A stretch of DNA of 64,000 nt from Actinophytocola sp. (GTDB lineage: Bacteria > Actinomycetota > Actinomycetes > Mycobacteriales > Pseudonocardiaceae). Shown here one piece after another: positions 9,128-64,000 of this stretch. Numbering within the stretch: position 1 is the stretch's first letter; each line of letters opens with the position of its first letter. The notes below the pieces were generated by a model. The model saw only the letters and a program-made list of their open reading frames with translations, was not told the origin of the DNA and did no database searches. The DNA lies in assembly GCF_009379765.1 (NCBI RefSeq), contig NZ_WHTD01000008.1, forward strand, positions 1-64,000, written 5' to 3'. The position numbers and the translations under genes are program-made.

Positions 9128-9223
9128 GGAGGCGTACGTGTTCCTGGTGGGCGCCGCGGTCTTCAAAACCGACGTGGCCCGGTATCCGGGCCAGGCAGGT
9201 TCGATTCCTGTCCGCCTCCGCCA
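9128..9223 (+). tRNA. selC: tRNA-Sec (anticodon TCA)
   Basis: A 96-nt tRNA including an encoded CCA. The acceptor arm GGAGGCG pairs with CGCCTCC, followed by discriminator G and CCA. The anticodon stem-loop has TCA at 9163-9165, which reads UGA. The long class-II variable arm is an 8-bp perfect stem, TGGCCCGG-TAT-CCGGGCCA. The T-arm is CAGG-TTCGATT-CCTG. The long variable arm, UCA anticodon and extended acceptor/T stack identify tRNA-Sec rather than a nonsense-suppressor tRNA. selB starts 22 bp downstream and may be co-transcribed. Confidence 0.97.
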
Positions 9224-9245
9224 TCTTTCCCCGAGGGGCCACACC

Positions 9246-11030
9246 ATGCACGTTCTCGCCACCGCCGGCCACGTCGACCACGGCAAGTCGACGCTGGTCC
9301 GCGCGCTGACCGGGATCGAGCCCGACCGGCTGGCCGAGGAGCGCCGCCGCGGCATGACCCTCGACCTGGGTTTCGCGTGGACCACGCTGCCCGGCGGCGA
9401 GACCGTCGCGTTCGTCGACGTGCCCGGCCACGAGCGGTTCATCTCCACCATGCTCGCCGGTGTCGGCCCGGTGCCCGGCGTGGTCGTCGTGGTCGCCGCG
9501 GACGAGGGCTGGCGGGCCCAGACCAGCGAGCACGTCGAGGTGCTCGACTCGCTCGGCGTGCGGCACGGCCTGCTCGTCGTCACCCGGGCCGACCTCGCCG
9601 ACCCCGCGCCGGCGCTGGCCTACGCGCGAGAGCGGCTGAGGCGGACGTCGCTCGGTGACGTCGAGGCACTCGCGGTCAGCGCGGTCACCGGCGCCGGCCT
9701 CGACGAGCTGCGCGCGGCGCTGTCCCGGCTGGTCGCCCGGCTGCCCGCGCCGGTCACCGACGGCCGGGTCCGGCTGTTCGTCGACCGCGCGTTCACCGTG
9801 CGGGGGAGCGGCACGGTCGTCACCGGCACGTTGGGTGCGGGCACGATCCACCAGAACGACCGGCTGCTGCTCGCCCCGGCCGGCACCGAGGTCCGGGTGC
9901 GCGGGCTGGAGTCGATGGGGGACAAGCACGACGACGTCGCGGCGGTCGCCCGGGTCGCGGTGAACCTGCGCGGGCTGCCGGTCGAGGACGTCCGCCGCGG
10001 GCACGTGCTGATCACGCCGGACCGCTGGGTGCTCACCGACATCGCCGACGTGCGGTTGACCTCGCTCGACCCGACCGACCTGCCCGGCGACCTGATGCTG
10101 CACATCGGCTCGGCCGCGGTGCCGTGCCGGGCGCGACCGTTCGGTGAGGACACCGCGCGGCTGCGGCTGGCCGCCCGGCTGCCGTTGGAGCCCGGGGACC
10201 GGGCGGTGCTGCGCGAGCCGTCGAGCCGGCTCACCACAGGGGTCGTCGTGCTCGACGTCGACCCGCCGGAGCTGCGCAGGCGCGGGGCCGCGCTGAACCG
10301 GGCGATCGAGCTGGAGGACGCCACCGGCCAACCGGACGTGCTGGTCGAGGTGGCCCGGCGGGGCAGCGTCACCCGCGAGTGGCTCGTCGCGCTGGGCGTG
10401 CTGGGCGGCGCCGACCCGGCGCCCGCCGAGCTGGTCGAGGTCGGCGAGCACCTCGTCGACCAGGACACCTGGCAGCGTTGGGGCAAGGAGCTCGCCGCCG
10501 CGGTCGACGCCCACCGCCAGTCGGCGCCGCTGGAACCGGGACTGCCGGCCAAGGCGGCCGCGCAGGCCATCGGCGCGCCGGACCTGCGGCTGGTCGAGGC
10601 CCTGGTCCGCGACTCGGGCGGCGCGCTGGTCGCCCGCGGCGGCCGGATCGCCCGGCCCGGTGCCGCCCCTGGTTTCAGCAACGCGGCCCGCCGCGCCCTC
10701 GACGACGTGTGCGCGCGGCTGGCGGCCGACCCGTTCGCGGCGCCGAGCGTGCCGGAGCTCGCCGAGGCCGGCCTGACCCGCGAGATCCTGGCCGCGGCCG
10801 CCGCGGCGGGCATGGTCCTGCGGCTGCCCGGCGAGGTGATCCTGCACCCGTCCGCGCCGCGGGCCGCCGTCGCCGCGCTCGCCGGCCTCGAGCAGCCGTT
10901 CACCCTGTCCGACGCCCGGCAGGCGCTGGGCACGACGCGGCGGGTGGCGGTGCCGCTGTTCGAGCACCTGGACGCCCTCGGCCTGACCACCCGCGTCGAA
11001 GCCACCCTCCGCCGAGTCACCGCCACCTGA
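9246..11030 (+). CDS. selB: Selenocysteine-specific elongation factor SelB
   Basis: 594 aa from ATG 9246; the track's earlier start lies inside the tRNA. The EF-Tu-like GTPase domain has the P-loop 'GHVDHGKSTL', the switch region 'RRRGMTLDLGFAW', 'DVPGHERF' and a 'TRAD' motif in the NKxD position. Domains II/III follow ('RLFVDRAFTVRGSGTVVTGT'). The C-terminal ~200 residues are a winged-helix array ending in 'EHLDALGLTTRVEATLRRVT', the part that binds the SECIS RNA. It delivers Sec-tRNA to UGA codons preceding a SECIS, and is needed for the four UGSC genes here. The 3' end is followed by a repeat array able to form hairpins. Confidence 0.97.
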   Translation: MHVLATAGHVDHGKSTLVRALTGIEPDRLAEERRRGMTLDLGFAWTTLPGGETVAFVDVPGHERFISTMLAGVGPVPGVVVVVAADEGWRAQTSEHVEVLDSLGVRHGLLVVTRADLADPAPALAYARERLRRTSLGDVEALAVSAVTGAGLDELRAALSRLVARLPAPVTDGRVRLFVDRAFTVRGSGTVVTGTLGAGTIHQNDRLLLAPAGTEVRVRGLESMGDKHDDVAAVARVAVNLRGLPVEDVRRGHVLITPDRWVLTDIADVRLTSLDPTDLPGDLMLHIGSAAVPCRARPFGEDTARLRLAARLPLEPGDRAVLREPSSRLTTGVVVLDVDPPELRRRGAALNRAIELEDATGQPDVLVEVARRGSVTREWLVALGVLGGADPAPAELVEVGEHLVDQDTWQRWGKELAAAVDAHRQSAPLEPGLPAKAAAQAIGAPDLRLVEALVRDSGGALVARGGRIARPGAAPGFSNAARRALDDVCARLAADPFAAPSVPELAEAGLTREILAAAAAAGMVLRLPGEVILHPSAPRAAVAALAGLEQPFTLSDARQALGTTRRVAVPLFEHLDALGLTTRVEATLRRVTAT

Positions 11031-11228
11031 GAACCCCGCGAGTCCAACCCCCAGGACCCGCGAGTCCAACCCCCAGGACCCGCGAGTCCAACGTTCCGGA
11101 CCCGCGAGTCCAACGCTCGGATCGGGGCTCGGCGACGGGCTCGGCGTGCCGGCCACCCGGCCGCGGCCCGGGCCGATCGCGAACAGGGGGACTCGCGGGT
11201 CGGGAGCGGGGGACTCGCGGGGTCTGGG
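11031..11228. repeat. 22-bp-period repeat array (core ACTCGCGGGTC / GACCCGCGAGT)
   Basis: Downstream of selB, AGTCCAACCCCCAGGACCCG-type units repeat every 22 bp four times (11041, 11063, 11085, 11107). After a spacer the reverse orientation (GGACTCGCGGGTC, GGACTCGCGG) appears twice. The opposite orientations can fold into a long hairpin, so the array may end selB transcription. Related arrays are at 14157, 36370 and 63660. Confidence 0.75.
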
Positions 11229-12557: not shown

Positions 12558-13103
12558 ATGACGCTGCACGTGTTCCGGCCGGTGCCGTTCGACGACCAGC
12601 AGCAGCTCCAGTTCGCCCGCCGGCTGGACACGTTGCGCGGCAAGCGGGTCGGCTTCATCGGCAACCTCAAGCCGAACTGCGACGTTCTGCTGCACACCAC
12701 CGAGGACCTGCTCGGTGCGCGGCAGGGGATCGCGGGCACGGTCTACCGCGAGAAGGCGAGCTGCAGCAGCGGCGCGCCGGTCGCGATGCTCGACGAGATC
12801 GGCGACACCTGCGACGCGGCCGTCGTCGCCCTCGGCGATTGAGGCTCCTGCACGTCGTGGAGTGTCCATGACGCCGTGGAGCTGGAGAAGCGCAACCTGC
12901 CGACGGTCACGATCGTCGGTGAGACGTTTCGGATGATCGCCGAGTACGAGAGCGAGGGCCTCGGGCTCGCCGGGCTGCCGCTCGCGATCGTCGAGTACCC
13001 GATGGGTGGCGTGCCGACCGAGGAGGCCGTCGCGCGGGCACATCGCGCGTTCGACCAGGTCCTGGCCGGGCTCACCGGTCCCGTCGGCAACGGAGGTACC
13101 TGA
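12558..13103 (+). CDS. UGSC family selenoprotein, copy 1 (Sec at TGA 12840-12842)
   Basis: Two track ORFs (12558-12842 and 12876-13103) are one 181-aa protein if TGA 12840 is read as Sec, residue 95. The joined sequence reads '...AAVVALGD-U-GSCTSWSVHDAVELEK...', and the same U-G-S-C context occurs in three other genes of this window. The first half has 'LRGKRVGFIGNLKPNCDVLL', suggesting an alpha/beta fold. The second half has 'LPTVTIVGETF'. A stem-loop 11 nt after the TGA is a good bacterial SECIS. ATG 12558 follows GGAGAGG, and the stop overlaps the next ATG (TGATG). Sec and Cys three residues apart suggest a selenenylsulfide redox centre. Function otherwise unknown. Confidence 0.92.
12843..12872 (+). 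promoter_or_regulatory. bSECIS stem-loop of UGSC copy 1
   Basis: Directly after TGA come 11 nt (GGCTCCTGCAC), then GTCGTGGA - loop GTG - TCCATGAC, an 8-bp stem (one G-T pair) at 12854-12872. The loop starts 19 nt after the Sec codon and opens with G, matching what bacterial SelB needs. The same design recurs in copies 3 and 4. Confidence 0.8.
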
Positions 13104-14152
13104 TGTCGTTCGCTGGCAAGGAGATCACCGGTGACCTGCTCGCCTACGACGACGTCGAGGCCATGGGCGAGGAGTTCTACGGCGAGAAGTGGACCGACGG
13201 CCTGCCGGTCGTAGCCCCGACCGCGGACCGCGTCGAGCGCATGCTCGGCGCGGCCGACGGCGGCGAGCTGCTGGGGACGATGCCGCCGCGGTGGCGGCGG
13301 ACGTTCGTGCACCACGTGGCGGTCAACGCGGTGCTCGCGGGGTGCCGGCCGGAGTATTTTCCCGTTGTGCTGGCGGGGGTTCGGGCGATCCTCGATCCCA
13401 GGCTGAACCTCTACGGGGTGCAGGGGACGACCAACCCGGCCGGCGTGATGCTGGTCGTGAACGGCCCGGCGCGGCTGGCGCTGGACGTCAACAGTGGCCA
13501 CAACCTCTTCGGCCAGGGCTGGCGCGCCAACGCCACCATCGGCCGCGCGATCCGGCTGTGCATGATCAATATCGGCGGCGGTCTGCCCGTGCTGGGCGAC
13601 ATGTCCACATTGGGCAACCCGAACAAGTACGGGTCGTGCATCGCGGAGAACGAGGAGGAAAGCCCGTGGGCTCCGTTCCATGTGGAGCGTGGCTTCGGTG
13701 CTGACGAGTCGGTGGTCACCGCGGCGGGCGTGACCGCGCCGCAGAACATCGCGATCCTGTCCCAAGACCCGGTCGCGATCCTCGACGGCATCGCCGGCGC
13801 GCTGATGAGCAGCGGGAGCAACCTGCTGCTGTTCACCGCGCAGCCCCTGGTGGTGATCGGCCCGGTGCACGCGAAGCACCTGGCTCGCAACGGCTACGAC
13901 AAGCCGTCGATCCGCCGGTACCTGTGGGAGCACGGCACGATCGAGCTGACCGGTGTGGGCGGCACCGACGGCAAGGCCATGCGCGAGTGGAAGGCGCGGT
14001 GCGTCCACGTCGAGGGCTCCCGGGAGTTCCTCCGCCCGTCGGTGACGCCCGAGGACATCGGGATCGTCGTGGCGGGCGGGAAGAGCGGGCCGCACAGCGC
14101 GGTGCTGCAGCCGTTCAACATCACCCAGCTGGTGAGCATGGCGGTGTCCTGA
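13103..14152 (+). CDS. UGSC-partner family protein, copy a
   Basis: 349 aa, ATG overlapping the UGSC-1 stop and preceded by GGAGG. The function is not established. Family landmarks shared by the paralogues here are 'WTDGLPVVAPT' near residue 30, 'AVNAVLAGCRPEYFPVV' (Cys81), 'GPARLALDVNSG', 'RANATIGRAIRL', 'NKYGSCIAENEEESPW' (Cys179) followed by 'FHVERGF', then 'GPVHAKHLARNGYDK' and a C-terminal 'GIVVAGGKSGPHSAV'. The two invariant cysteines could work with the UGSC Sec/Cys pair. No signal peptide or membrane helix. Translational coupling and the natural fusion at 17-19 kb argue that this family acts together with UGSC proteins. Confidence 0.85.
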   Translation: MSFAGKEITGDLLAYDDVEAMGEEFYGEKWTDGLPVVAPTADRVERMLGAADGGELLGTMPPRWRRTFVHHVAVNAVLAGCRPEYFPVVLAGVRAILDPRLNLYGVQGTTNPAGVMLVVNGPARLALDVNSGHNLFGQGWRANATIGRAIRLCMINIGGGLPVLGDMSTLGNPNKYGSCIAENEEESPWAPFHVERGFGADESVVTAAGVTAPQNIAILSQDPVAILDGIAGALMSSGSNLLLFTAQPLVVIGPVHAKHLARNGYDKPSIRRYLWEHGTIELTGVGGTDGKAMREWKARCVHVEGSREFLRPSVTPEDIGIVVAGGKSGPHSAVLQPFNITQLVSMAVS

Positions 14153-14156
14153 GCGG

Positions 14157-14212
14157 GGAACTCGCGGGTCGAGAATGGGGGACTCGCGGGTCCTGGGGGT
14201 TGGACTCGCGGC
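14157..14212. repeat. 22-bp-period repeat array
   Basis: Three units starting ACTCGCGGGTC or ACTCGCGG at 22-bp spacing follow the stop of the partner gene. The same core occurs at 11031, 36370 and 63660. It precedes a family A element. Confidence 0.7.
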
Positions 14213-14341
14213 TTGGCGCCAGCCTCGCACCGACCAACGCAAGCTCAGGGGACCGTGACGGCACCCAACCACCAACCGACAGCGATCCGCACCATCCGCT
14301 GGAACGCAACCAACACTTTTAATTCCGGGGAGGCGGACTAG
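14213..14341. mobile_element. MITE-like element family A, copy 1 (left end lost)
   Basis: It shares a ~125-bp body with 26556-26801, 30275-30450 and (inverted) 41928-42080: 'CTCAGGGGACCGTGACG', 'CCAACCACCAACC', 'GCAACCAACACTTTTAATTC' and the right end CGGGGAGGCGGACTAG. The left CTAG...TGTCCCATGGATC end is missing. The right end overlaps the 3' end of the ABC ATPase gene on the minus strand and supplies its last codons and stop. Confidence 0.75.
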
Positions 14342-15323
14342 CGAAGTGGCAGCGGGACGGGTGTCCGTGTGCCCCGCGGTCCTCCAGCTCCGGCACCTCC
14401 TCGGCGCAGATGTCGGCGGCCTTCCAGCACCTCGTCCGGAACGTGCATCCCGACGGCAGGTCGGTCGGGCTCGGCAGGTCGCCCTCGAGCAGGATCCGGT
14501 GCACGCTGTCGCGCTTCGACGGGTCCGGGATCGGCACCGCGGAGAGCAGCGCCTGGGTGTACGGGTGGGTCGGCCGCTCGTAGATGTCGTGCTCGTCGCC
14601 CAGCTCGACGATCTTCCCGAGGTACATCACCGCGACCCGGTCGGAGATGTGCCGCACCACGGACAGGTCGTGCGCGATGAACACATAGGACAGTCCGAAG
14701 TCGGCCTGGATGTCGGCCAGCAGGTTGATCACCTGCGCCTGCACGGAGACGTCCAGCGCGGACACCGGCTCGTCGCAGACGATCACCTCGGGGTCCAGTG
14801 CCAGGACCCGCGCGATGCCGATCCGCTGCCGCTGCCCGCCGGAGAACTGGTGCGGATACCGGTCCACGAACGAGGGATCCAGCCCGACCCGCTCCAGCAG
14901 CTCCCCGGCCCGTGCCCGGTGCTTGGCCCGCGGCACGATCCCGCGGTGGATCGCCCACGCCTCGGTCACGAGGTCGCCGACGGTCATCCTCGGGTTCAGC
15001 GACGCGTAGGGGTCCTGGAAGATGATCTGGATCTTGCGGCGCACCTCGCGCAGCTCGCGGCGGTTCATCGAGAACACGTCCCGCCCGCGGTAGAACACCC
15101 GGCCCTCGGTCGGCTCGTCCAGCCGCAGCAGCGTGCGGCCGAGCGTGGACTTCCCGCAGCCCGACTCCCCGACCAGCCCGAGCGTCTCGCCCTCGTGCAG
15201 CTCGAAGCTGACCCCGTTGACCGCCTTCACCTGGCCGGTGGTTCGCCGAACCCCGGTACCTTCCTTGATGGGGAACCACTTGACCACGTTCTCCACCCGC
15301 AGCACAGGCTCCTCAGCGTTCAC
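14319..15323 (-). CDS. Dipeptide/oligopeptide ABC transporter ATP-binding protein (DppF/OppF type)
   Basis: 334 aa from GTG 15323, overlapping the DppD-like gene by 11 nt. Walker A is '[13 protein letters not shown]', the signature '[13 protein letters not shown]', Walker B 'VIVCDEP'. A C-terminal oligopeptide-transporter extension has a cysteine cluster ('[16 protein letters not shown]'). Together with the DppD-like gene it forms the ATPase pair of a peptide/opine-type importer whose permeases are missing here but present at 52-55 kb. The last residues ('SPPPRN', stop TAA) are read from a family A repeat, so the native C-terminus has been replaced. Confidence 0.9.
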
Positions 15324-18994: not shown

Positions 18995-20863
18995 TTACTT
19001 CGCGATGTCCGCGGGCGCCAGGGTGTCCGATGAGACCGGTTCGTGCCATTCGGCCAGCACCTGGTCCACCGGGGTCGAGGCGAACAGCGGCGCGGCGGAC
19101 CGCACCCCGACCGGCATGCGGCGGAAGCGCCATGGGCTCGTGAACGCCAGCCGCTCGCCGAACTCGGGTGACCAGCCACGGACCAGCACCGACCGGTACA
19201 GGTCGCCGAGGGGCCCCTGGGCGGTGCCGGCGAGATGCGCGAGCGTCACCTCCTCGGCGTCGGGCAGCTCGGCCTGCGCGGGGTCGGTCCCGCGGTAGTG
19301 GCTCGCGCACGTGTTGACCAGCGCGCGCAGCTGGGACAGCAGCAGGTGGCTGCCGCCTCGGTCGGCGGCCAGCGCGGCGACCACGGCGAAGGTGGCCCAG
19401 GCGCCGGCGTTCGGGTCGGCGACGCCCCAGTTCAGCAGGCCCAGCGGCGCGCCGGTCCGGTCGGTCACGGCGGCCTCGATACCGGCCAGCGCGGTGAGCA
19501 TCGGCGCATAGCTGCGGGCGAGGTACTGCCCGTCGACCGTCCGGCCGCCCATCGACAGCAGGACGAGTGCGGGGTTCGCCGCGAGCAGCCGCCCCGGTGC
19601 GAGGTCCAGCCGTTCGAGCACGCCGGTCGCGAAGCTCTCGACGACCACGTCCGCCTCGGCCACCAGCGCGAGGAAGAGCGCGTGGTCGGCGGGATCCTTG
19701 AGCTCCAGCCGGATTCCGCGCTTGTTCCGGTTGGCCGCGTTGAAGAGCCACGCCCGCTCGTAGCCGGGCAGCGTCGCCCGGTCCGACGGCAGCCCGGCCG
19801 GGAAGTCGACCCCGCGCCGCCGGCCCACGTCGAGCCGGTCGAGGCTCTCGACCTTCACCACGTCCGCGCCGAGATCCGCGAGCCAGGCGCTCGCCACCGG
19901 CGCGGCCCACACCCAGCCGAGGTCGAGCACCCGCAGCCCGGCGAGCGGACCGCCGGGGCTCGGGTCGCGTGGTCGCAGCGTCCACGAGCACGGGTGCGGC
20001 GCCGGCCGGTGCGCGGTGACCGCCGGTACCGGGTCGGTGCCGGCGAGCAGCTCGGGGTCGGCCAGCGCCTCGCCGGCCGTCCGAAGTGGAGCGATCGGCA
20101 CCCGGAACTCCCGCCCGGCCGCGACGACGTCGGCCACCGTGCGCTCGCGCAGGATCTCGGTGATCAGCCCGGCCACCTCGTCGGCGTGCTCGGCCGCGAT
20201 CACGAGCTGGTCGGCGAGCTCCGGCCGCCCGGCCCACGGCGGGTCGCCGAGCAGCGCGAGGAACGCCTCCCACTCGACGCGCGCCCGGCAGATCACCACG
20301 ACCCAGCCGTCGCGGCAGCGGAACATCCGGAACGGGAACGGCCCTCCGGAGCCCGACGCGCTCGGCCCGGACCGGCGCCACGGCCGGCCGTAGTTGAGGA
20401 ACTGGATGGCGTTCACGCCGGACATCCCGGCGAGACACGCGACCGGGTCGACGACGACGTGCTCGCCGACGCCGTCCCGGCGCGCCCCGAGCCAGCCGGC
20501 CAGTGCGGCGGTGGCGGCCTGCAGTCCGGCGATCGCCTCGAGCATCCGGCCGGGTGGTGCCAGCCCTGGTCCGTCGGGCTCGCCGATCACCGCGCCGATC
20601 CCGGACAGCTCGGCGATCCGCGCGTTGGCGTCGGGCAGCGCGGCCGGCCACCCGAGCTCGACGAGGGTGAGCCCTGTCAGTGCCGCCGGCCACGGCTCGT
20701 CGCCGCCGAGCAAGGCGGTGAGCGGCGCGGGGTCGTCGGTGAGGCAGACGTCGAAGTCGGCGACCTCGCCCCGGGTATCGACCGGGAACCCGGCCTGCCG
20801 CAAGGCGTCGGCGGCGAACCGGCAGGCATAGCCGGTGCCGAGGGCGAGGATCCGCGGGCTCAT
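18995..20863 (-). CDS. Tandem class III CoA-transferase (CaiB/BaiF family, double length)
   Basis: 622 aa from ATG 20863; the track's longer start runs into tandem repeats. The second half begins 'PLAGLRVLDLGWVWAAPVAS' and has 'LADLGADVVKVES', 'NRNKRGIRLELKDPAD' and 'WGVADPNAGAW', placing the catalytic Asp. The first half resembles a CaiB C-terminal region ('LEAIAGLQAATAALAGWLG', 'VVVICRARVEWEAFLALLG') without the usual aspartate. These enzymes move CoA between carboxylic acids, the typical entry into CoA-linked catabolism. Two-domain versions exist. It lies upstream of UGSC-2 on the same strand, with a promoter-like box between. Confidence 0.85.
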   Translation of the reverse strand: MSPRILALGTGYACRFAADALRQAGFPVDTRGEVADFDVCLTDDPAPLTALLGGDEPWPAALTGLTLVELGWPAALPDANARIAELSGIGAVIGEPDGPGLAPPGRMLEAIAGLQAATAALAGWLGARRDGVGEHVVVDPVACLAGMSGVNAIQFLNYGRPWRRSGPSASGSGGPFPFRMFRCRDGWVVVICRARVEWEAFLALLGDPPWAGRPELADQLVIAAEHADEVAGLITEILRERTVADVVAAGREFRVPIAPLRTAGEALADPELLAGTDPVPAVTAHRPAPHPCSWTLRPRDPSPGGPLAGLRVLDLGWVWAAPVASAWLADLGADVVKVESLDRLDVGRRRGVDFPAGLPSDRATLPGYERAWLFNAANRNKRGIRLELKDPADHALFLALVAEADVVVESFATGVLERLDLAPGRLLAANPALVLLSMGGRTVDGQYLARSYAPMLTALAGIEAAVTDRTGAPLGLLNWGVADPNAGAWATFAVVAALAADRGGSHLLLSQLRALVNTCASHYRGTDPAQAELPDAEEVTLAHLAGTAQGPLGDLYRSVLVRGWSPEFGERLAFTSPWRFRRMPVGVRSAAPLFASTPVDQVLAEWHEPVSSDTLAPADIAK

Positions 20864-21100
20864 GCTGTGACACCCTGCCTCGCTCCGCTCGGCGTGGACG
20901 GCATTCGCGCGAAGCACGGTGGTTGGCTTGGTCGGTCGGCTCACGCCGTGACACCTGCCTTGCTCCGCTCGGCGTGGACGGCATTCGCGCGAAGCAAGGT
21001 GGTTGGGTTGGTTGGTTTGCTCATGCTGTGGCACCTGCCTCGCTCCGCTCGGCGTGGACGGCATTCGCGCGAAGCACAGTGGTTGCGTTGGTCATTCGGC
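20858..21100. repeat. Three tandem ~80-bp repeats
   Basis: Units start at about 20858, 20939 and 21019 (GCTCAYGCYGTGRCACC...), and a fourth partial start lies at 21099. Each holds CTCCGCTCGGCGTGGACGGC and ATTCGCGCGAAGCA. The first unit overlaps the CoA-transferase start codon and the last abuts the dipeptidase stop, so the whole intergenic region consists of this repeat. In minus-strand translation each unit encodes 'LRANAVHAERSEAG'-like text, which explains the spurious N-terminal extensions in the ORF track. Confidence 0.85.
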
Positions 21101-22066
21101 TCACGCCCAGGCCGCCTCGAGCACGCGCAGGTGGTTGCCGCCGAGGATGGCCCGCACCGCGTCGGTGTCGTAGCCGCGCCCGACGAGTGCCGTGGCCAGG
21201 TTGGGGAACTCGGAGATCGTGGCGATGCCGGTAGGCCAGGACCAGGGCGGGTCGCCGTAGATCTCCCGCGGCAGGCTCGCGAAGCGGTCGTAGAACGCGC
21301 GCGGGTGGTTCTCGAAGATCGCGAGCCCGATGCCGACGTGCTCGACGCCGATGCGCGCCACGATGTGGTCGACGTGGTCCAGCATGTGGTCGATCCGCAC
21401 GCCGGGACCGCCCGCGTAGAAGGGGATCCCGGACACGCCGACCACGCCGCCGTTCGCGGCGACCAGGTCGAGCTGCTCGTCGGTGAGGTTGTTCGGGTGG
21501 TCGAACACGGCGCGGGCGTTGGTGTGGCTCCAGATCGCCGGCCGGGTGGCGACCGCGCACGCGTCGCGCAGCGTCTCCGGGCTCGCGTGGCACAGGTCCA
21601 GCAGCACCCCCCGGCCCTGCAGCTCCTCGACGAGTCCGACGCCGAACCGGGACAGGCCGGTGTCGACCCGGTCGCCCGGACCGCAGCCCGCGTCGTTGAG
21701 CGTGGTGTAGACGAGCTGCATCCGGCGGACGCCGAGGTCGTGGAAGAGCTCGACCTTGCGCAGGTCCTTGTCCAGCTGGCGGGAGTCCTCCAGCGCCAGG
21801 ATGAGCCCGAGCCTGCCGTTCTCCTTGGCCGAGCGGATGTCGGCGACCGTGCGGACGATCACGGCCGCGTCGGCGTTGGCCGCGACCATCGCGCGCAGGT
21901 CGAGGATCTTCTCGACGGCCGCGGTGAACGGGTCGGTGATCGACACCGGCACCATCGCGGCGGTCACGCCCGCGTCGCGGACGGTTCGCAGGTAGTCGCC
22001 GGTGAGCCCGGCGTTGTTCATGCTGTCGATCACGAGGGTGTCGCGGTACACGTCTGGGATGGCCAC
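21101..22066 (-). CDS. M19 (renal dipeptidase-like) membrane dipeptidase family protein
   Basis: About 321 aa from GTG 22066. The N-terminal 'DTLVIDSMNNAG' takes the place of the usual metal-binding 'IDGHND'. Later motifs fit M19: 'ALEDSRQL', 'QLVYTTLNDAGCG', 'VLLDLCHASPETL', 'PAIWSHTNARAVFDHPNNLT' and 'GVEHVGIGLAIFE', where typical members have 'GxDFDG'. The loss of both His/Asp motifs (N-terminal HxD and DFDG) means some metal ligands are changed, so the activity may not be peptidase. Divergent from the alpha-hydroxyacid oxidase, sharing an AT-rich box. Few bases separate box and start, so the mRNA may be leaderless. Confidence 0.78.
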   Translation of the reverse strand: MAIPDVYRDTLVIDSMNNAGLTGDYLRTVRDAGVTAAMVPVSITDPFTAAVEKILDLRAMVAANADAAVIVRTVADIRSAKENGRLGLILALEDSRQLDKDLRKVELFHDLGVRRMQLVYTTLNDAGCGPGDRVDTGLSRFGVGLVEELQGRGVLLDLCHASPETLRDACAVATRPAIWSHTNARAVFDHPNNLTDEQLDLVAANGGVVGVSGIPFYAGGPGVRIDHMLDHVDHIVARIGVEHVGIGLAIFENHPRAFYDRFASLPREIYGDPPWSWPTGIATISEFPNLATALVGRGYDTDAVRAILGGNHLRVLEAAWA

Positions 22067-26559: not shown

Positions 26560-26801
26560 GAAATGTCCCATGGATCAGGCTTGTGGCATGGCCTCGCGCC
26601 GACCAACGGAAGCTCAGGGGACCGCGACGGCACCCAGCCACCAACCACCGCATGTCCGCACCGCTCGCTGGGACGCAACCAACACTTTTAACTCCGGGGA
26701 GGCGGTCTGGCACCCCAGCCACCAACCACCGCATGTCCGCACCGTCCGCTGGACGCGACCAACACTTTAAAATCCGGGGAGGCGGACTAGCGGCGGACTA
26801 G
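26556..26801. mobile_element. MITE-like element family A, copy 2, with internal duplication
   Basis: Begins CTAGGAAATGTCCCATGGATC and ends GGAGGCGGACTAGCGGCGGACTAG. The right-hand ~75 bp ('CACCAACCACCGCATGTCCG' to 'TCCGGGGAGGCGG') are present twice in tandem. CTAG at the left gives the stop of the quinone oxidoreductase and CTAG at the right gives the stop of the convergent NifU-like gene. Confidence 0.8.
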
Positions 26802-34765: not shown

Positions 34766-35614
34766 GTGGCGATGATGACCCCGGTGGAGGGCAAGGACAT
34801 GGCTCCGGCGGTCACCGCCGCCGGAGACCGGCTCGAGGACCGCGACTCGTCGAGCCGATCGACGGTGACCGTGGGGCTGCTGCGGCTGGCCGTGCTGGTC
34901 GTGGCGCTGCTGGCGTGGCAGTTCGTCGCCGGCGCGTTCGACATCGAGTTCTTCATCAGCAAACCGACCGAGATCTGGGCGCAGCTGTCGGACTGGATCA
35001 CCACCGGCTACCTGCTGGACAACCTCGGCGTGACGCTGCAGGCGACGCTGTACGGGTTCCTGCTCGGCGCGGCGGCGGGCATCGTGGCGGGCTTCGTGCT
35101 GGGCCTGATCCCGTTGCTGGGCCGGCTGCTCGACCCGTTCATCACCGCGGTCTACAGCCTGCCCAAGCTCGCGCTGGCGCCGCTGTTCGTGCTGTGGTTC
35201 GGCATCGACCTGGAGATGAAGGTCGTGCTGACCGCGGTGATCGTGTTCTTCCTGGTCTTCTGGAACACCTACACCGGCGTGCGGGAGACCGACGAGGAGC
35301 TGGTGGACGTCCTGCGGGTGATGGGCGCGCGGCGCCGAGACATGATCCGCAAGGTCGTCCTGCCCGGCTCGCTCACCTACATCTACGTCGGCCTCAAGCT
35401 CGCCATCCCGTACGCCCTGGTCGGTGCGGTGGTGGGGGAGCTGATCGCGTCGAACAAGGGGCTGGGCTACATCCTGATGTCGGCGGCGGGGGCGTTCAAC
35501 ACCGCGGGCATCATGGCGGCCCTGGTGGTCCTGATGGTGATCGCGACGCTCATGAACACGCTGCTGAACCTCACCGAGGTGTACGTCATGCGCTGGAAGC
35601 GCGCGGGGCGCTGA
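34766..35614 (+). CDS. ABC transporter permease, SsuC/TauC (sulfonate/nitrate/taurine) type
   Basis: 282 aa from GTG 34766 (GGAGG 8 nt upstream). About six transmembrane segments, with the SsuC-like 'SKPTEIWAQLSDWI' after the first helix and the ATPase-contact loop 'VLRVMGARRRDMIRKVVLPG'. It is the inner-membrane channel of an importer for small anionic organics. No ATPase gene is adjacent; the orphan ATPase at 44055 or the one at 37216 could serve it. The upstream solute-binding-protein gene is frameshifted. Its 3' end overlaps the convergent permease gene by 29 bp. Confidence 0.88.
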   Translation: MAMMTPVEGKDMAPAVTAAGDRLEDRDSSSRSTVTVGLLRLAVLVVALLAWQFVAGAFDIEFFISKPTEIWAQLSDWITTGYLLDNLGVTLQATLYGFLLGAAAGIVAGFVLGLIPLLGRLLDPFITAVYSLPKLALAPLFVLWFGIDLEMKVVLTAVIVFFLVFWNTYTGVRETDEELVDVLRVMGARRRDMIRKVVLPGSLTYIYVGLKLAIPYALVGAVVGELIASNKGLGYILMSAAGAFNTAGIMAALVVLMVIATLMNTLLNLTEVYVMRWKRAGR

Positions 35615-36407
35615 GCTCCTCGGGCCGCCACCGCAGCAGCCTGGCCTCCAGGCGCAGCATCGCCTCGTTGAGGACCGTCGCGGTGGCGGCCAGCAGCACG
35701 ACGACGGCGAACAGCGTGTCGGTCCGGAAGAGCTGCGCCGCCTGGTTCATCAGGTAGCCGACGCCCGCGCCGGCCGAGAACACCTCACCCACGACGACCC
35801 CGGTGAGCCCGTGGGCGATCGACTGCCGCACCCCGGTGAGCGCGTACGGCAGGGTCCCGGGCAGCACCACGGTCCGCAGCACCTGCGCCGGTGACCCGCC
35901 GAACGACCGGGACATCCGCACCAGCCGCTGGTCGGCGGCGCGCACCCCGGCCATCGTGTTGAGCAGCACGGGAAAGACGGCGGCGAGGAACACGACGACG
36001 AGCTTGTACTCGAGCCCGAACCCGAACCACACCACGAAAAGCGGCACGAGCGCGATCCGCGGCGTCGAGTAGAACGCCATCACCAGGGGCTCGAACAGGT
36101 CGCGCACGGGCCCGTACCACCCCATGAACAACCCGAGCGGCAACCCGACCCCCACCGCGAGCGCCCACCCGGCGAGGAACCCGGTGGCGGTGGCGTAGGC
36201 GTGCACCGCCCAGAAGTCCGCATCGGACACGAGCGTGCCGAGCGCGGACCCGACCCCGGAGGGCGACCCGGTGAACACCGGATCCACCCACCCGGACCGG
36301 GCGAGCAGCTCCCACCCGACGAGCACGAGAACGAGGAACCCGCCACCCCGAACCACTCTGCGGGAACGGCGGACTCGCGGGTCCGGAGTGGGGGACTCGC
36401 GGGTCAT
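35586..36407 (-). CDS. ABC transporter permease, SsuC/TauC type (second of a pair)
   Basis: 273 aa. ATG 36407 overlaps the stop of the preceding permease (ATGA), which fixes the start. The first residues ('[15 protein letters not shown]') are encoded by a 22-bp-period repeat array, an odd N-terminus created by a repeat. After that the protein is a normal permease: 'SPSGVGSALGTLV', 'RIALVPLFVVWFG' and the loop 'MSRSFGGSPAQVLRTVVLPG'. It is last in the operon OsmC - solute-binding protein - ATPase - permease - permease, so the channel is probably a heterodimer. Confidence 0.88.
   Translation of the reverse strand: MTRESPTPDPRVRRSRRVVRGGGFLVLVLVGWELLARSGWVDPVFTGSPSGVGSALGTLVSDADFWAVHAYATATGFLAGWALAVGVGLPLGLFMGWYGPVRDLFEPLVMAFYSTPRIALVPLFVVWFGFGLEYKLVVVFLAAVFPVLLNTMAGVRAADQRLVRMSRSFGGSPAQVLRTVVLPGTLPYALTGVRQSIAHGLTGVVVGEVFSAGAGVGYLMNQAAQLFRTDTLFAVVVLLAATATVLNEAMLRLEARLLRWRPEELSAPRASSA
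36370..36406. repeat. 22-bp-period repeat (two units) inside a permease start
   Basis: Two ACTCGCGGGTC cores 22 bp apart. They lie within the first codons of the permease gene on the minus strand, showing this repeat can be tolerated in coding sequence. Confidence 0.7.
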
Positions 36408-37219
36408 CGGGGTTGCCAGCGGGTGAGTCGCTTCTCTGCCACGCCGAGCAGCTCGTTCAGCAGGGTGCCGCAGGCGGCCACGATCACCACGGCCGCGATG
36501 ATCCGTTCCACCTGGATGGTCATCGCCGCGTCGGCGATCACCCAGCCCAGGCCCGCCGCCGACGCCCACATCTGCGCGCCGACCACGCCCGTCACCGCGT
36601 GCGTCAGGGCCTGCCGCACGCCCGCGAACACCAGCGGCACCGAGCCCGGCAGCGCCACCGTCCGCAGGAGCTGCCAGGGCGACGCGCCGAACGAGCGGGC
36701 CATCGCCACCAGCCGCGGGCGCGCGTCCCGCACGCCCGCGACCGTGTTCAGCAGCACCGGGAAGACGCTCCACAGCGCGACAACCGTGACCTGGTAGGCG
36801 AACCCGTAGCCCAGCCACACCATCAGCAGCGGGATCAGCGCGATCCGCGGCACGGCGTTCAGCACGAACACGAACGGCTCCAGCGTCTCCCGGACCGCGC
36901 GGCTCCAGCCCATCACCACGCCGAGCCCGATCCCCGCCACGACCGCGATCACCCAGCCGGCCGCGAACCCCCGCACGGTCGCCAGCACGTGCACCGACCA
37001 GAACGAGCCCTCCCCGGTCAGCGCCGCCAGCGTCGACGCCACCTCGGTCGGCGAGCTCACGTACAGCTTCGTGTGCGGGCCGGACCGCGACGCGAGCTCC
37101 CAGCACCCCAGCAGCACGACGATCAGCCCGCCGCCCAGGGACAGCCGGTGCCGGCGGCGTGACCGAGGTGGCGCCGGCACCCGGGCCGGCGCCGCGGGCC
37201 GCCGCAGCACCGCGGTCAC
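36404..37219 (-). CDS. ABC transporter permease, SsuC/TauC type (first of a pair)
   Basis: 271 aa from GTG 37219, overlapping the ATPase stop (GTGA). An Arg/Pro-rich cytoplasmic N-tail precedes '[15 protein letters not shown]'. Then come '[14 protein letters not shown]', '[16 protein letters not shown]' and the EAA-type loop '[20 protein letters not shown]'. It pairs with the permease at 35586, with which it shares the loop motif. Part of an uptake operon for an organic anion. Confidence 0.88.
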
Positions 37220-39044: not shown

Positions 39045-39502
39045 GACCTGCCTCCTGTTGGTAGGGGTGCGCCGACGACCTCGTAGGTCGTCGTGATGTC
39101 CGCGACGTGGGACAACGTCGCGTGGACCGAGCAGTCGCCGTGGCACGCGTGTGCCGCGGCGGTGAGGGACTCCTCGTCGAGGTCGTCCCCGGAGACGGCG
39201 AGGTGCATGGCGATCGCGCGGAACACCGCGGGCCGGGTGGTGGCCGGTGCGCCGGTCACCGTGACGTGGAGCGCGCGCGGCACCTTCCCGCGCCGGCGCA
39301 GCTCGGCGACGAAGCTCGCGCCCGAGCAGCCGGCGAGCGCCATCAGCAGCAGGTCCCGGGCGGCGACCGCGCGCCCGTTCGGCCTGCCGATCTTGCCGCC
39401 GAGATCCATGTGGACGTGGTGGCCGTGCTCGTCGGCGGCGTCGAACAGCGCCTCGCCGGGGTCGACGGCGACCTCCACGGTGCGGGTGGTGGAGTTGGCC
39501 AT
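39041..39502 (-). CDS. OsmC/Ohr family protein
   Basis: 153 aa. Two conserved cysteines of thiol peroxidases of this family are in place: '[18 protein letters not shown]' and '[18 protein letters not shown]'. OsmC proteins reduce organic hydroperoxides or act on other electrophiles through this Cys pair. First gene of a transporter operon, four-base overlap with the solute-binding-protein gene. In the island a peroxidase could protect selenols or act on a pathway intermediate. Its start codon and ribosome binding site lie in a 65-bp sequence that is duplicated upstream. Confidence 0.85.
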
Positions 39503-39620
39503 GGTGGTGTCCTTTCCCTCGGGGGTCAGGGAGTTGCTTGCGGGAGCGGTGCGGTCGAGTTGGCCACGGTGGTGTCCTTTTCCCCCGGGTCAGGGAGTTG
39601 CTCACGGGAGCGGCTCGATC
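39492..39620. repeat. 65-bp tandem duplication
   Basis: The stretch from GAGTTGGCCATGGTGGTG (39492) recurs from GAGTTGGCCACGGTGGTG (39557) with about 85-90% identity, down to CAGGGAGTTGCTYRCGGGAGCGG. The unit covers the OsmC start and ribosome binding site and, in the second copy, the 3' end of the molybdoenzyme gene. In the second copy the ATG has become GTG/ACG on the minus strand. Confidence 0.75.
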
Positions 39621-46757: not shown

Positions 46758-48229
46758 CAGATCACTCCGTCCGCGCGTAGGGCCGCGAGCGTGGTCTCGT
46801 CGAGGCCGAGCTCGGCGAACACCGTCGCGTTGTCGGCGCCGCGGGGTGGGCCCGCGTGCTCGACGGTGTGCTCGCGGCTCGGGAACTTCGGCACGACGCC
46901 CTGCATCAGCACCGGGCCGAGCACGTCGTCGGCCACCTCGATGAGGTCGCCCCTGGCCTGGAACTGCGGGTCGGCCACGATGTCCTCGGCGGAGTACACC
47001 TGCTGGTGCACCGCGTCCGCCTCGGCGAGGCGCTTCTCGAGCGTGGCGTAGTCCCACTTGGCGGCCCAGATGTGCAGCAGCTCGTCGCACTCGTCGAGGA
47101 ACTCGACCACCGCGGCCGGGTCGCTCATCATCACGCCCGCGTCGACGCGGGCCATCTGCGGCACGGCCTCGGCGGCCTGCAGGATGCGCCGGATCGCCGC
47201 CGGGCCCACCGCGCTCACCACGAACCACCTGCCGTCCGCGGACCGGAAGAGGTTGCGCAGCACGCCGTGGCTGGTGAGCTTGTTGCCCGGCCGGTGCGGC
47301 GCGGTGCCGAACTGGTGGTAGCTCGCGATCTGGGTCGGGATGATCCGGAACAGGCCCTCGAACAGCGCGATGTCGACGACCTCGACGCCGGTGGCCGGAC
47401 CGTTGTGCCCGCGGCCCCACAGCGCGGCCATGATCCCGAACGCGCCGAACGTGGCCGCGACGCCGTCCGCGAGCGTGGTCGACGGGAAGGTCGGCGGGCC
47501 GTCCGACTCGCCGTTGAGGTGGGCGAACCCGCTGATCGCCTCCGCGATCGTGCCGAACCCGGGGCGGCCGCTGACCGGACCGCTCTGGCCGAACCCGGAG
47601 ATCCGCAGCATCACCGCGTCGACCCCGGCCGCGGTCAGGTCGGCCGGGCCCAGGCCCCACTTCTCCAGCGTGCCGGGGCGGAAGTTCTCGCAGATGACGT
47701 CCGCGTCCCTGGCCAGCTCGACGGCGAGCTCGCGGCCGCGCCCGGTGTTGATGTCGAGCGTGATCACCCGCTTGCCGCGCTGGATGACCGACCACCACAT
47801 GGACTGCTCGCCCTTGCGCGGCAGCATGGTCCGGATCGAGGTCTTGGTCGGGTGCTCGACGGCGATCACGTCCGCGCCGAGGTCGGCGAGCAGGCTCGCG
47901 GACAGCGCGCCGGAGTACTGGTGGGACAGGTCGAGCACGCGCAACCCGGCGAGAATCGGCCCGCCCGCCAGCCCCCCCGAGCCACCCCAAGGCCCCGCCG
48001 CGTCACCCCGCGACGTGGCCGTGTCGCCCGCTGGCGTCGATGAGTCGTCCCGTGGCGTAGCCGTGTCGCCCGCTGGCGTAGTCGTGTCGTCTGGTGGCGT
48101 GGCCGTGTCGCCCGCTGGCGTGGTCGTGCTGTCCCGTGGCGTGGCCGTGTCGTCCGCTGGCGTGGCCATGTCGTCTGGTGGCGTGGCTGTGTCGTCCGGC
48201 TGTGTCGTCGGTTCGCTGGTCACGGTCAT
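46757..48229 (-). CDS. Class III CoA-transferase with a heptad-repeat N-terminal extension
   Basis: 490 aa. The first ~75 residues are about nine 7-residue repeats of the type T-A-T-P-x-D-D, encoded by 21-bp DNA repeats. The CaiB/BaiF enzyme then starts at 'ILAGLRVLDLSHQYSGALSA', with 'LADLGADVIAVEHP', 'NFRPGTLEKWGLG' and the catalytic Asp in 'STTLADGVAATFG'. The ATG overlaps the upstream CoA-transferase stop (ATGA). The Thr/Pro/Asp-rich extension is not part of the family and is probably disordered. It transfers CoA to a carboxylic acid substrate of the pathway. Confidence 0.88.
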   Translation of the reverse strand: MTVTSEPTTQPDDTATPPDDMATPADDTATPRDSTTTPAGDTATPPDDTTTPAGDTATPRDDSSTPAGDTATSRGDAAGPWGGSGGLAGGPILAGLRVLDLSHQYSGALSASLLADLGADVIAVEHPTKTSIRTMLPRKGEQSMWWSVIQRGKRVITLDINTGRGRELAVELARDADVICENFRPGTLEKWGLGPADLTAAGVDAVMLRISGFGQSGPVSGRPGFGTIAEAISGFAHLNGESDGPPTFPSTTLADGVAATFGAFGIMAALWGRGHNGPATGVEVVDIALFEGLFRIIPTQIASYHQFGTAPHRPGNKLTSHGVLRNLFRSADGRWFVVSAVGPAAIRRILQAAEAVPQMARVDAGVMMSDPAAVVEFLDECDELLHIWAAKWDYATLEKRLAEADAVHQQVYSAEDIVADPQFQARGDLIEVADDVLGPVLMQGVVPKFPSREHTVEHAGPPRGADNATVFAELGLDETTLAALRADGVI

Positions 48230-62298: not shown

Positions 62299-63618
62299 CT
62301 ACCCGGTCGCGGCGACCACTGCGTCCACAATGGACTCGTCAGCGCTCTCGGGCACCGCGAGCAGGTCCAGCAGGCACGCCCCGCCGGCCACGCGGCCCAC
62401 CACCGGCCGCGTGCCCAGGCGCAGCCGTTCCACGTAGGACTCCGGCAGCCGCACCGCCGCGCTCTCCAGGGTCACCCCCGGCGCCCCGCCGCCACCGACC
62501 GTTGCCGGGCTCGTCGTTGCCACCGCGTCGATTCCGCGGTCCCGCAGGGAGCTCGCGATCCGGTCGGCGCGGGCCAGCAGGTCCTCCTGCCTCGCCTCCA
62601 GCGCCCGCGCGGTCGGCGTCGGCGGCACGCGCAAGGTCGCCTCCAGCGCGGCCAGGGTCAGCTTCCCCACCCGCAACGCCCGCGCCATCGGGTGCCGCCG
62701 CAGGCGGTGCACCAGGTCCGCCCGGCCCAGGATCAACCCGCACTGCGGGCCACCCAGCAGCTTGTCCCCACTTGCGATCACCAGGTCGGCACCCGCCCGC
62801 AGCGCCGAAGCGGCATCCGGCTCCGCCGGCAGCAACGGGTGCGGCGTGAGCAGGCCCGAGCCGACGTCGGCCACGACGGGGACACCCAGCGTCGCCAGCT
62901 CCGCGACCGGAACGTCCGCCGTGAAGCCCGTGACCACGAAGTTCGACGGGTGCACCTTCAGCACGAACCCCGTCGACTCCCCGACGGCGGCCGTGTAGTC
63001 GGCGAGGGCGGTGCGGTTGGTCGTGCCAACCTCGCGCAGCGTCGCGCCGGTGCTCGTCAGCAGGTCCGGCAGGCGGAAGCCGTCGCCGATCTCCACCAGC
63101 TCGCCGCGGCTGACCACGATCTCTCGGCCCATCGCGAGCGCGGTCGCCGCCAGGACCAGCGCCGCCGCGCCGTTGTTGACCACGTGCACGGCCTCGGCGT
63201 CGGGCACCGCCGCGGCCAGCGCCGCCAGCATCCCCAGGCCACGGCCCGACCGGCGCCCGGTGGCGAGGTCCAGCTCGACGTCGGTGGGCCCGGCGGCCGC
63301 CACGACGGCCTCGGTCGCCGCGGCGGACAGCGGAGCCCGGCCCAGGTTGGTGTGCAGCAGGACCCCGGTGGCGTTCACGACCGGCCCGAGCGACGCACCA
63401 CGCACCGGCAGCGCCGCCACCGCCTCGTCGGCGACCGCCGACTGGTCGATCTCGCCCGCGCGTGCCCTGCCCTGCGCCGCCACGACCGCCTGCTTCACCG
63501 CGGGCCGGCCCACCCGCCCGGCCGCCTCGACCAACCGCGGATCGGCCAGCACCTCGTCGGTCCGCGGCACGAGGCGCCGTCTGTCCACAGAGGAAGCCGT
63601 CTGACCAGGCGTGTTCAC
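62299..63618 (-). CDS. selA: L-seryl-tRNA(Sec) selenium transferase
   Basis: 439 aa. PLP enzyme that converts Ser-tRNA(Sec) to Sec-tRNA(Sec) with selenophosphate. Motifs: 'VNATGVLLHTNLGRAPLS', 'VHVVNNGAAALVLAATAL', 'VVSRGELVEIGDGFRLPDLL', 'LREVGTTNRTALADYTAAVG' and the PLP-lysine segment 'DLVIASGDKLLGGPQCGLIL'. The start overlaps no other gene; upstream is a repeat array. It lies 51 kb from selD/selC/selB, on the far side of the selenoprotein genes. Confidence 0.96.
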   Translation of the reverse strand: MNTPGQTASSVDRRRLVPRTDEVLADPRLVEAAGRVGRPAVKQAVVAAQGRARAGEIDQSAVADEAVAALPVRGASLGPVVNATGVLLHTNLGRAPLSAAATEAVVAAAGPTDVELDLATGRRSGRGLGMLAALAAAVPDAEAVHVVNNGAAALVLAATALAMGREIVVSRGELVEIGDGFRLPDLLTSTGATLREVGTTNRTALADYTAAVGESTGFVLKVHPSNFVVTGFTADVPVAELATLGVPVVADVGSGLLTPHPLLPAEPDAASALRAGADLVIASGDKLLGGPQCGLILGRADLVHRLRRHPMARALRVGKLTLAALEATLRVPPTPTARALEARQEDLLARADRIASSLRDRGIDAVATTSPATVGGGGAPGVTLESAAVRLPESYVERLRLGTRPVVGRVAGGACLLDLLAVPESADESIVDAVVAATG

Positions 63619-63654: not shown

Positions 63655-63762
63655 TCCACGCCCGCGAGTCCAACGCTCCGGACCCGCGAGTTCGACGTTT
63701 GGGGCTGTGGGTGGGGTCGTGAGTGTTGGACTCGCGGGTCGTGAACGTTGGACTCGCGGGAT
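63655..63762. repeat. 22-bp-period repeat array, both orientations
   Basis: CCCGCGAGTCCAACG and ACCCGCGAGTTCGACG lie 22 bp apart. After a GTGGG-rich spacer, TTGGACTCGCGGG occurs twice in reverse orientation, also 22 bp apart. The two halves can form a large hairpin. It is upstream of selA (divergent side) and resembles the array behind selB. Confidence 0.72.
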
Positions 63763-64000
63763 TCCTGGGCGAATTTTCGGAGTAACGGCAATACGGCAAA
63801 TGGCGGCTCGGTCACCCGGATGCCGTCCTTCGGTATCACCCCGCGTATTACCGGAGGATCACGGGTCCGCCGGGTGGTGGATTGCCGTACCAGGTCGCCT
63901 GCGGAATTCTGTTCCGACCATCCGGGACGACATCGGCATGCGGCCCACGCCGAATTCCCGGACGGGCGCGCACCCATCCGGCGAAAGGAAGTCCCGGATG
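63763..64000 (+). other. Upstream region and possible start of a gene leaving the window
   Basis: No ORF that I trust lies in this stretch. The last bases, GAAAGGAAGTCCCGGATG, put an ATG (63998-64000) 8 nt after AAGGAAG, so a plus-strand gene may begin exactly at the window edge. Nothing can be said about its product. Confidence 0.3.

Follow-up and report, generated by a model that had tools for sequence, protein, structure and literature searches.

The repeats analyzed here have their closest described counterparts in the REP, BIME and REPIN elements, short extragenic sequences present in hundreds of copies, for the most part between convergent or co-directional genes (PMC3733652, PMC3116915, PMC2817692), and in the MIRU of Mycobacterium tuberculosis, whose units of 40-100 bp occupy about 41 loci (PMC2734929). 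Like the former, our repeats lie near stop codons, are specific in sequence to each species and often stand in opposite orientations, but they show a constrained octamer, an exact 22-bp step and a palindrome that is not conserved between species. Like MIRU, they are tandem repeats dispersed over intergenic and operon junctions and missing in relatives whose genes nearly touch; they differ from MIRU, whose copy number varies between strains, in their 22-bp unit, their two orientations and their family-wide octamer. A third system, the TAACTGA heptamer arrays of marine Beggiatoaceae, has a 7-bp period and stands immediately before start codons (PMC4679880). Both are genome-wide arrays of a short word in direct repeat, with a fixed place relative to genes and a patchy occurrence among relatives, yet the 22-bp arrays sit behind stop codons.

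The window, that is, the whole stretch of 64,000 nucleotides of Actinophytocola sp. analyzed here, had been described in the initial annotation as carrying one core at 22-bp steps at four loci (11031, 14157, 36370 and 63655), and all four were confirmed. In its general form the core is an octamer, GACTCGCG, repeated with a period of 22 bp, each unit having a 14-bp spacer. The arrays and the genes that they adjoin are the following:

9222-11030 (+), selB, selenocysteine elongation factor, start approximate; Pfam GTP_EFTU and SelB-wing_3
11031-11226 (no single strand), array 1, immediately downstream of the stop codon of selB: four units in the CGCGAGTC sense (cores 11033-11043, 11055-11065, 11077-11087 and 11099-11109, read on the + strand), a spacer and two GACTCGCG units (11191-11201 and 11213-11223)
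14158-14214 (+), array 2: three GACTCGCG units at 14160, 14182 and 14204, with the stop codon of the + strand gene 13103-14152 located 6 bp upstream, facing a convergent ABC-transporter gene at 14319-15305 (-)
35586-36407 (-), ABC-transporter permease (BPD_transp_1), its N-terminus lengthened by array 3
36372-36405 (+), array 3: two GACTCGCG units where the stop and start codons of two permease genes overlap (ATGA)
36404-37219 (-), second permease (BPD_transp_1), upstream in the same operon, with a TGA that overlaps the ATG of the next gene
63659-63762 (no single strand), array 4: CGCGAGTC units at 63659 and 63681 and GACTCGCG units at 63730 and 63752, between two divergent genes, selA (-) and one on the + strand that starts at 63998

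Array 3 reads CGCGAGTC in the sense of its genes. Array 4, whose second CGCGAGTC unit has one octamer mismatch, is the only one of the four that does not lie behind a stop codon. The proposal that the units often occur in both orientations and form large hairpins held for 11031 and 63655, where the two arms fold strongly as RNA (z of -7.4 and about -7, respectively), whereas the arrays at 14157 and 36370 have a single orientation and their neighbouring units are able to pair only because the core GACTCGCGGGTC is nearly palindromic. The proposal that one array encodes the N-terminus of a permease was borne out by comparison with the congener G002. The overlap of the permease genes is GTGA in that genome and ATGA here, and the two units at 36370 are a net in-frame insertion of 42 nt after the third codon, which adds a net 14 codons relative to the G002 homologue unless a later GTG start is used. 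Two arrays happen to adjoin genes of the selenocysteine machinery, one behind selB and one beside selA: a tRNA-Sec, the only match in an Rfam search of the window, is located at 9128-9223 (+) with selB directly behind it, and selA lies about 51 kb away at 62299-63618 (-).

Genome-wide, 275 exact copies of ACTCGCGGGTC (133 + 142) were counted against 10 (7 + 3) of the reversed control, and 80 exact core pairs stand 22 bp apart against none in the control. Degenerate cores with up to two mismatches were not above chance in the window (73 matches vs 72.8 expected), so the excess lies in exact copies in the 22-bp register and not in single degenerate cores. The 22-mer of Actinophytocola sp. approximates GACTCGCGGGTCCTGRGCGTTG, with variation mainly at spacer positions 4-6 and 8-10, and its core is a near-palindrome that is absent from the variants of other species. 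The genome is an 8.36-Mb draft with short contigs, and its statistics are based on about 1 Mb of sequence picked around core matches; in this sample, 122 of 129 consecutive exact octamers no more than 100 bp apart are spaced by 22 bp. The bias of an octamer search was avoided by comparing middle units left free between two exact neighbours. Mismatches in these units affect 0.7% of octamer sites but 8.4% of spacer sites in this genome, and 1.5% against 11.6% in other genomes. These rates, together with the regular step, indicate that the octamer and the 22-bp spacing are constrained. Between species, neither spacer sequence nor palindrome, strand or arm order is conserved.

The spacers also record how the arrays grew. 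Of 90 pairs of adjacent spacers, 18 are identical where 3.4 would be expected, which shows that units duplicate locally. In contrast, unlike neighbouring spacer pairs common to several loci (5 vs 4.7 expected) do not exceed chance, so copying or movement of arrays as whole multi-unit blocks is unsupported. The excess of identical neighbours would suit pure slippage minisatellites grown from chance sequence locus by locus, without dispersal, but we consider this very improbable: independent chance seeds could not have given scores of unlinked loci a single consensus 22-mer. The shared consensus refutes slippage as a full account, although slippage may explain array growth after seeding.

Based on genes called with a purpose-written codon-phase Markov caller, 48 of the 67 arrays of this genome lie within 30 bp of a stop codon, whereas random intergenic placement gives 8.0 +/- 2.8 (maximum 19 in 1000 simulations). 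Between convergent genes there are 27 of the 67, against 10.9 +/- 3.1 at random; where the flanking genes are in tandem, arrays stand a median of 19 bp from the upstream stop and 117 bp from the next start. Eight arrays occupy divergent gaps, as does the array of the window beside selA. The same tendency towards gene ends is shown by 113 arrays of the named relatives, for which the spacing statistics rest on loci from a three-unit search. Random placement and spacings other than 22 bp, the outcome that would have spoken against the initial annotation, were thus looked for and not seen. Behind the stops, the sense strand carries CGCGAGTC in 25 of 29 tandem junctions of this genome, a polarity that purely neutral insertion would not predict. 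A Rho-like, C-rich sense strand was considered as a rule; it holds in this genome and in the marine Pseudonocardia CNS-139 and CNS-004 and fails in several species (pooled across species, p = 0.04 with kinship between species ignored). Both orientations are present in 32 of the 67 arrays and a single one in 35. In 28 of the 32 two-orientation arrays CGCGAGTC comes first, and the arm order is opposite to this in all 14 two-orientation arrays of CNS-139 and CNS-004.

Placement behind stops and between convergent genes, the sense-strand polarity and the strong two-arm folds at 11031 and 63655 would agree with bidirectional terminators, or with 3' hairpins that stabilise RNA, selected at gene ends. 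Yet no T-tract follows the four arrays of the window, two of which have no two-arm stem, about half of all arrays have a single orientation, the near-palindrome is lost in other species, the C-rich sense rule breaks in several of them and the array at 36370 lies within a start/stop-coupled operon. At a histidine-kinase junction (L219), moreover, the array lies 3 bp past the stop codon, ahead of an intrinsic terminator that is retained in the compared congeners, and at three other loci (L214, L299 and L301) a terminator-like hairpin stands between the stop codon and the array. An array before a conserved terminator and others after terminator-like hairpins show that terminator function fails to explain the arrays. 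The position fits the bidirectional terminators initially proposed, but selection as terminators or stabilising hairpins appears unlikely to have produced the arrays. A terminator or RNA role is possible at single loci and unlikely in general.

The arrays are lineage-specific additions behind gene ends. None of the 21 orthologous junctions compared in the congener G001 has an array within 240 bp downstream of the stop, although this genome is itself rich in arrays (137 array pairs), and more empty sites were found in the congeners G002-G005; the series thus comprises one array-rich congener and four with none or few arrays. C-termini are essentially unchanged with or without an array, even where it starts 2-3 bp past the stop. 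Since they match those of orthologs without arrays and the choice of stop codons near arrays is unremarkable, an element that supplies the stop codon was rejected; GTAG REPs do supply one. Insertion at a stop/start operon junction, a habit of MIRU, was seen at 36370 and at L213:16561-16669, and many other arrays are convergent. No target-site duplication could be demonstrated at the array insertions. The only close pair of genomes (G316 and G317) is identical over 20 kb.

These empty sites bear on the idea that the host maintains the arrays: a nucleoid-associated or roadblock protein would bind the octamer at two-helical-turn steps, and arrays between transcription units would be selected to organise DNA or to stop RNA polymerase. 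A conserved site at a conserved spacing, as expected for a nucleoid-protein binding array, was indeed found: octamer and step are constrained whereas spacer, strand and palindrome are free, and convergent junctions are favoured. However, none of the 21 positions is shared with the congener, a CysK junction being the one where both species compared have arrays, which differ in their spacers, and within the genera concerned many species have no arrays. Unconserved positions and array-free species mean that no particular site is needed, which leaves host maintenance a doubtful explanation.

Pairs of the form GACTCGCG-N14-GACTCGCG were found in 88 of 392 Pseudonocardiaceae genomes, about 55 of which have at least 10 pairs, with controls near zero; among 396 genomes sampled from the rest of the phylum, none has three units in register. 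The named carriers comprise many Pseudonocardia, Actinophytocola gossypii, Amycolatopsis taiwanensis, Saccharothrix yanglingensis, Lentzea and Herbihabitans, among others, and their spread over these genera identifies the family concerned as Pseudonocardiaceae. Many species in array-bearing genera have no arrays at all. Across the family the spacer is species-specific, and the congener G001 has the spacer of A. gossypii, which points to Actinophytocola as the genus of the window. Matches in Acidimicrobiaceae, Bacteroidia, Planctomycetaceae and Deltaproteobacteria look like unrelated repeats that share the octamer by chance. Outside Pseudonocardiaceae, Nocardioides sp. zg-DK7169 has six GACTCGCG units at 22 bp (L079, 3034-3160) with an unrelated spacer, an array that may be due to chance or may be a distant relative. 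In the open-access literature we found nothing on the octamer, nor on such repeats in Pseudonocardia, Amycolatopsis or Actinophytocola.

Three features of REPs were looked for in these repeats: 1) a GTAG/CGTC tag on a palindrome of 20-40 nt, 2) an inverted doublet as the replicating unit and 3) a REP-associated transposase. No tag was found, the unit being GACTCGCG plus its spacer, and the units are direct repeats at 22 bp instead of inverted doublets. This genome and 12 of the 13 array-bearing genomes tested have no RAYT (Y1_Tnp, PF01797), the exception being one copy in G133, whereas the positive control genomes were detected. REP/REPIN elements moved by a RAYT or an IS200-type Y1 transposase are therefore hardly credible here, and RAYT-driven REPs were rejected, in spite of a copy number, a placement at gene ends and two-arm arrays that resemble those of REPs (PMC3733652, PMC3116915). 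The earlier suggestion of a REP-like mobile sequence survives only in part: hundreds of extragenic copies, a place at the 3' ends of convergent and co-directional genes and lineage-specific insertion were found, but not the enzyme, the tag or the doublet. Since the period of 22 bp also falls short of the 40-100 bp of MIRU, the arrays lack defining features of both groups, and we file them as a variant of dispersed stop-proximal repeats.

With moderate confidence, we interpret the arrays as non-autonomous, REP/MIRU-like dispersed DNA repeats that are peculiar to Pseudonocardiaceae and amplified locally, with a constrained core probably read by a putative DNA-binding protein. A unit of octamer and species-specific spacer joins many gene ends, mostly a few bases past the stop codon, and multiplies locally into arrays with the exact step; the comparisons above show the lineage-specific insertion, the position, the constraint and the local duplication. 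From its sequence constraint, the core is probably read by a candidate DNA-binding protein; a sequence-specific protein acting at two-helical-turn steps would explain most simply why octamer and step are constrained. This putative trans-acting protein would recognise the octamers and might either mobilise the repeat or bind the arrays as sites of a function in chromatin or supercoiling. At other places, insertions may be purged by selection, coding and promoter DNA being presumably intolerant of them. An influence on RNA stability or on where transcription ends is a possible by-product at single loci and does not account for the arrays. In plasmid iterons and in the TnsB end sites of Tn7, a protein binds direct repeats spaced by about two helical turns. 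In contrast with these, the 22-bp arrays come with no replication origin, cargo or transposase, and protein binding is here putative.

Against this interpretation, no disperser was found: apart from the missing RAYT, no gene is common to the intervals between paired arrays; the genes there are unrelated, and an autonomous element with arrays as its ends was rejected. Viral contigs, plasmids and phages gave no array matches. A second type of array, with a 30-bp period and the word GAAGGNNNCCTTC, is present in 125 of the 392 Pseudonocardiaceae genomes, mostly where 22-bp arrays are scarce; it numbers hundreds in the congeners G002 and G004 and in many genomes of genus g16, and G208 has both types. 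In G002 and G004 these arrays lie behind stop codons (L241, L288-L295), and in a small sample 6 of 11 are convergent. It is conceivable, though we hold it tentatively, that dispersal follows a route other than REP and RAYT, in which a Pseudonocardiaceae protein would read GACTCGCG sites 22 bp apart and place single units behind stops, giving each species its own repeat dialect, with the 30-bp GAAGGNNNCCTTC arrays taking like positions in many species where the 22-bp type is scarce.

Other repeats were observed in the window and in congeners. A second repeat of this genome, with an 80-bp unit (..CCAACCACC....GGGACGCAACCAACACTTTAAAATCCGGGGAGGCGG..), occurs at 20857-21107 and 26629-26785, also near gene ends, and similar sequence is present near 14240-14340. 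A tandem repeat with periods of 21/42/84 bp (CCCGTGGCGTGGCCGTGTCGT) lies between or next to genes at 48007-48209, and at 39488-39613 a 65-bp stretch is directly duplicated where a gene call ends. In the congener G004 (L228, L234, L237 and L245) a further repeat containing CTACGCTGGAATCCGGGGGCCGGAGGCCA stands behind stop codons.

These arrays mislead annotation, since they can extend N-termini, as at 36370, and look like terminators. They show that gene ends of G+C-rich Actinobacteria have been colonised in a REP-like manner in the absence of RAYT, the enzyme by which REPs spread. With their conserved octamer and changing spacers, the roughly 55 species of Pseudonocardiaceae that have at least 10 pairs each, together with the many array-free relatives, offer a natural series for comparison that could lead to the factor that spreads or reads the repeat.
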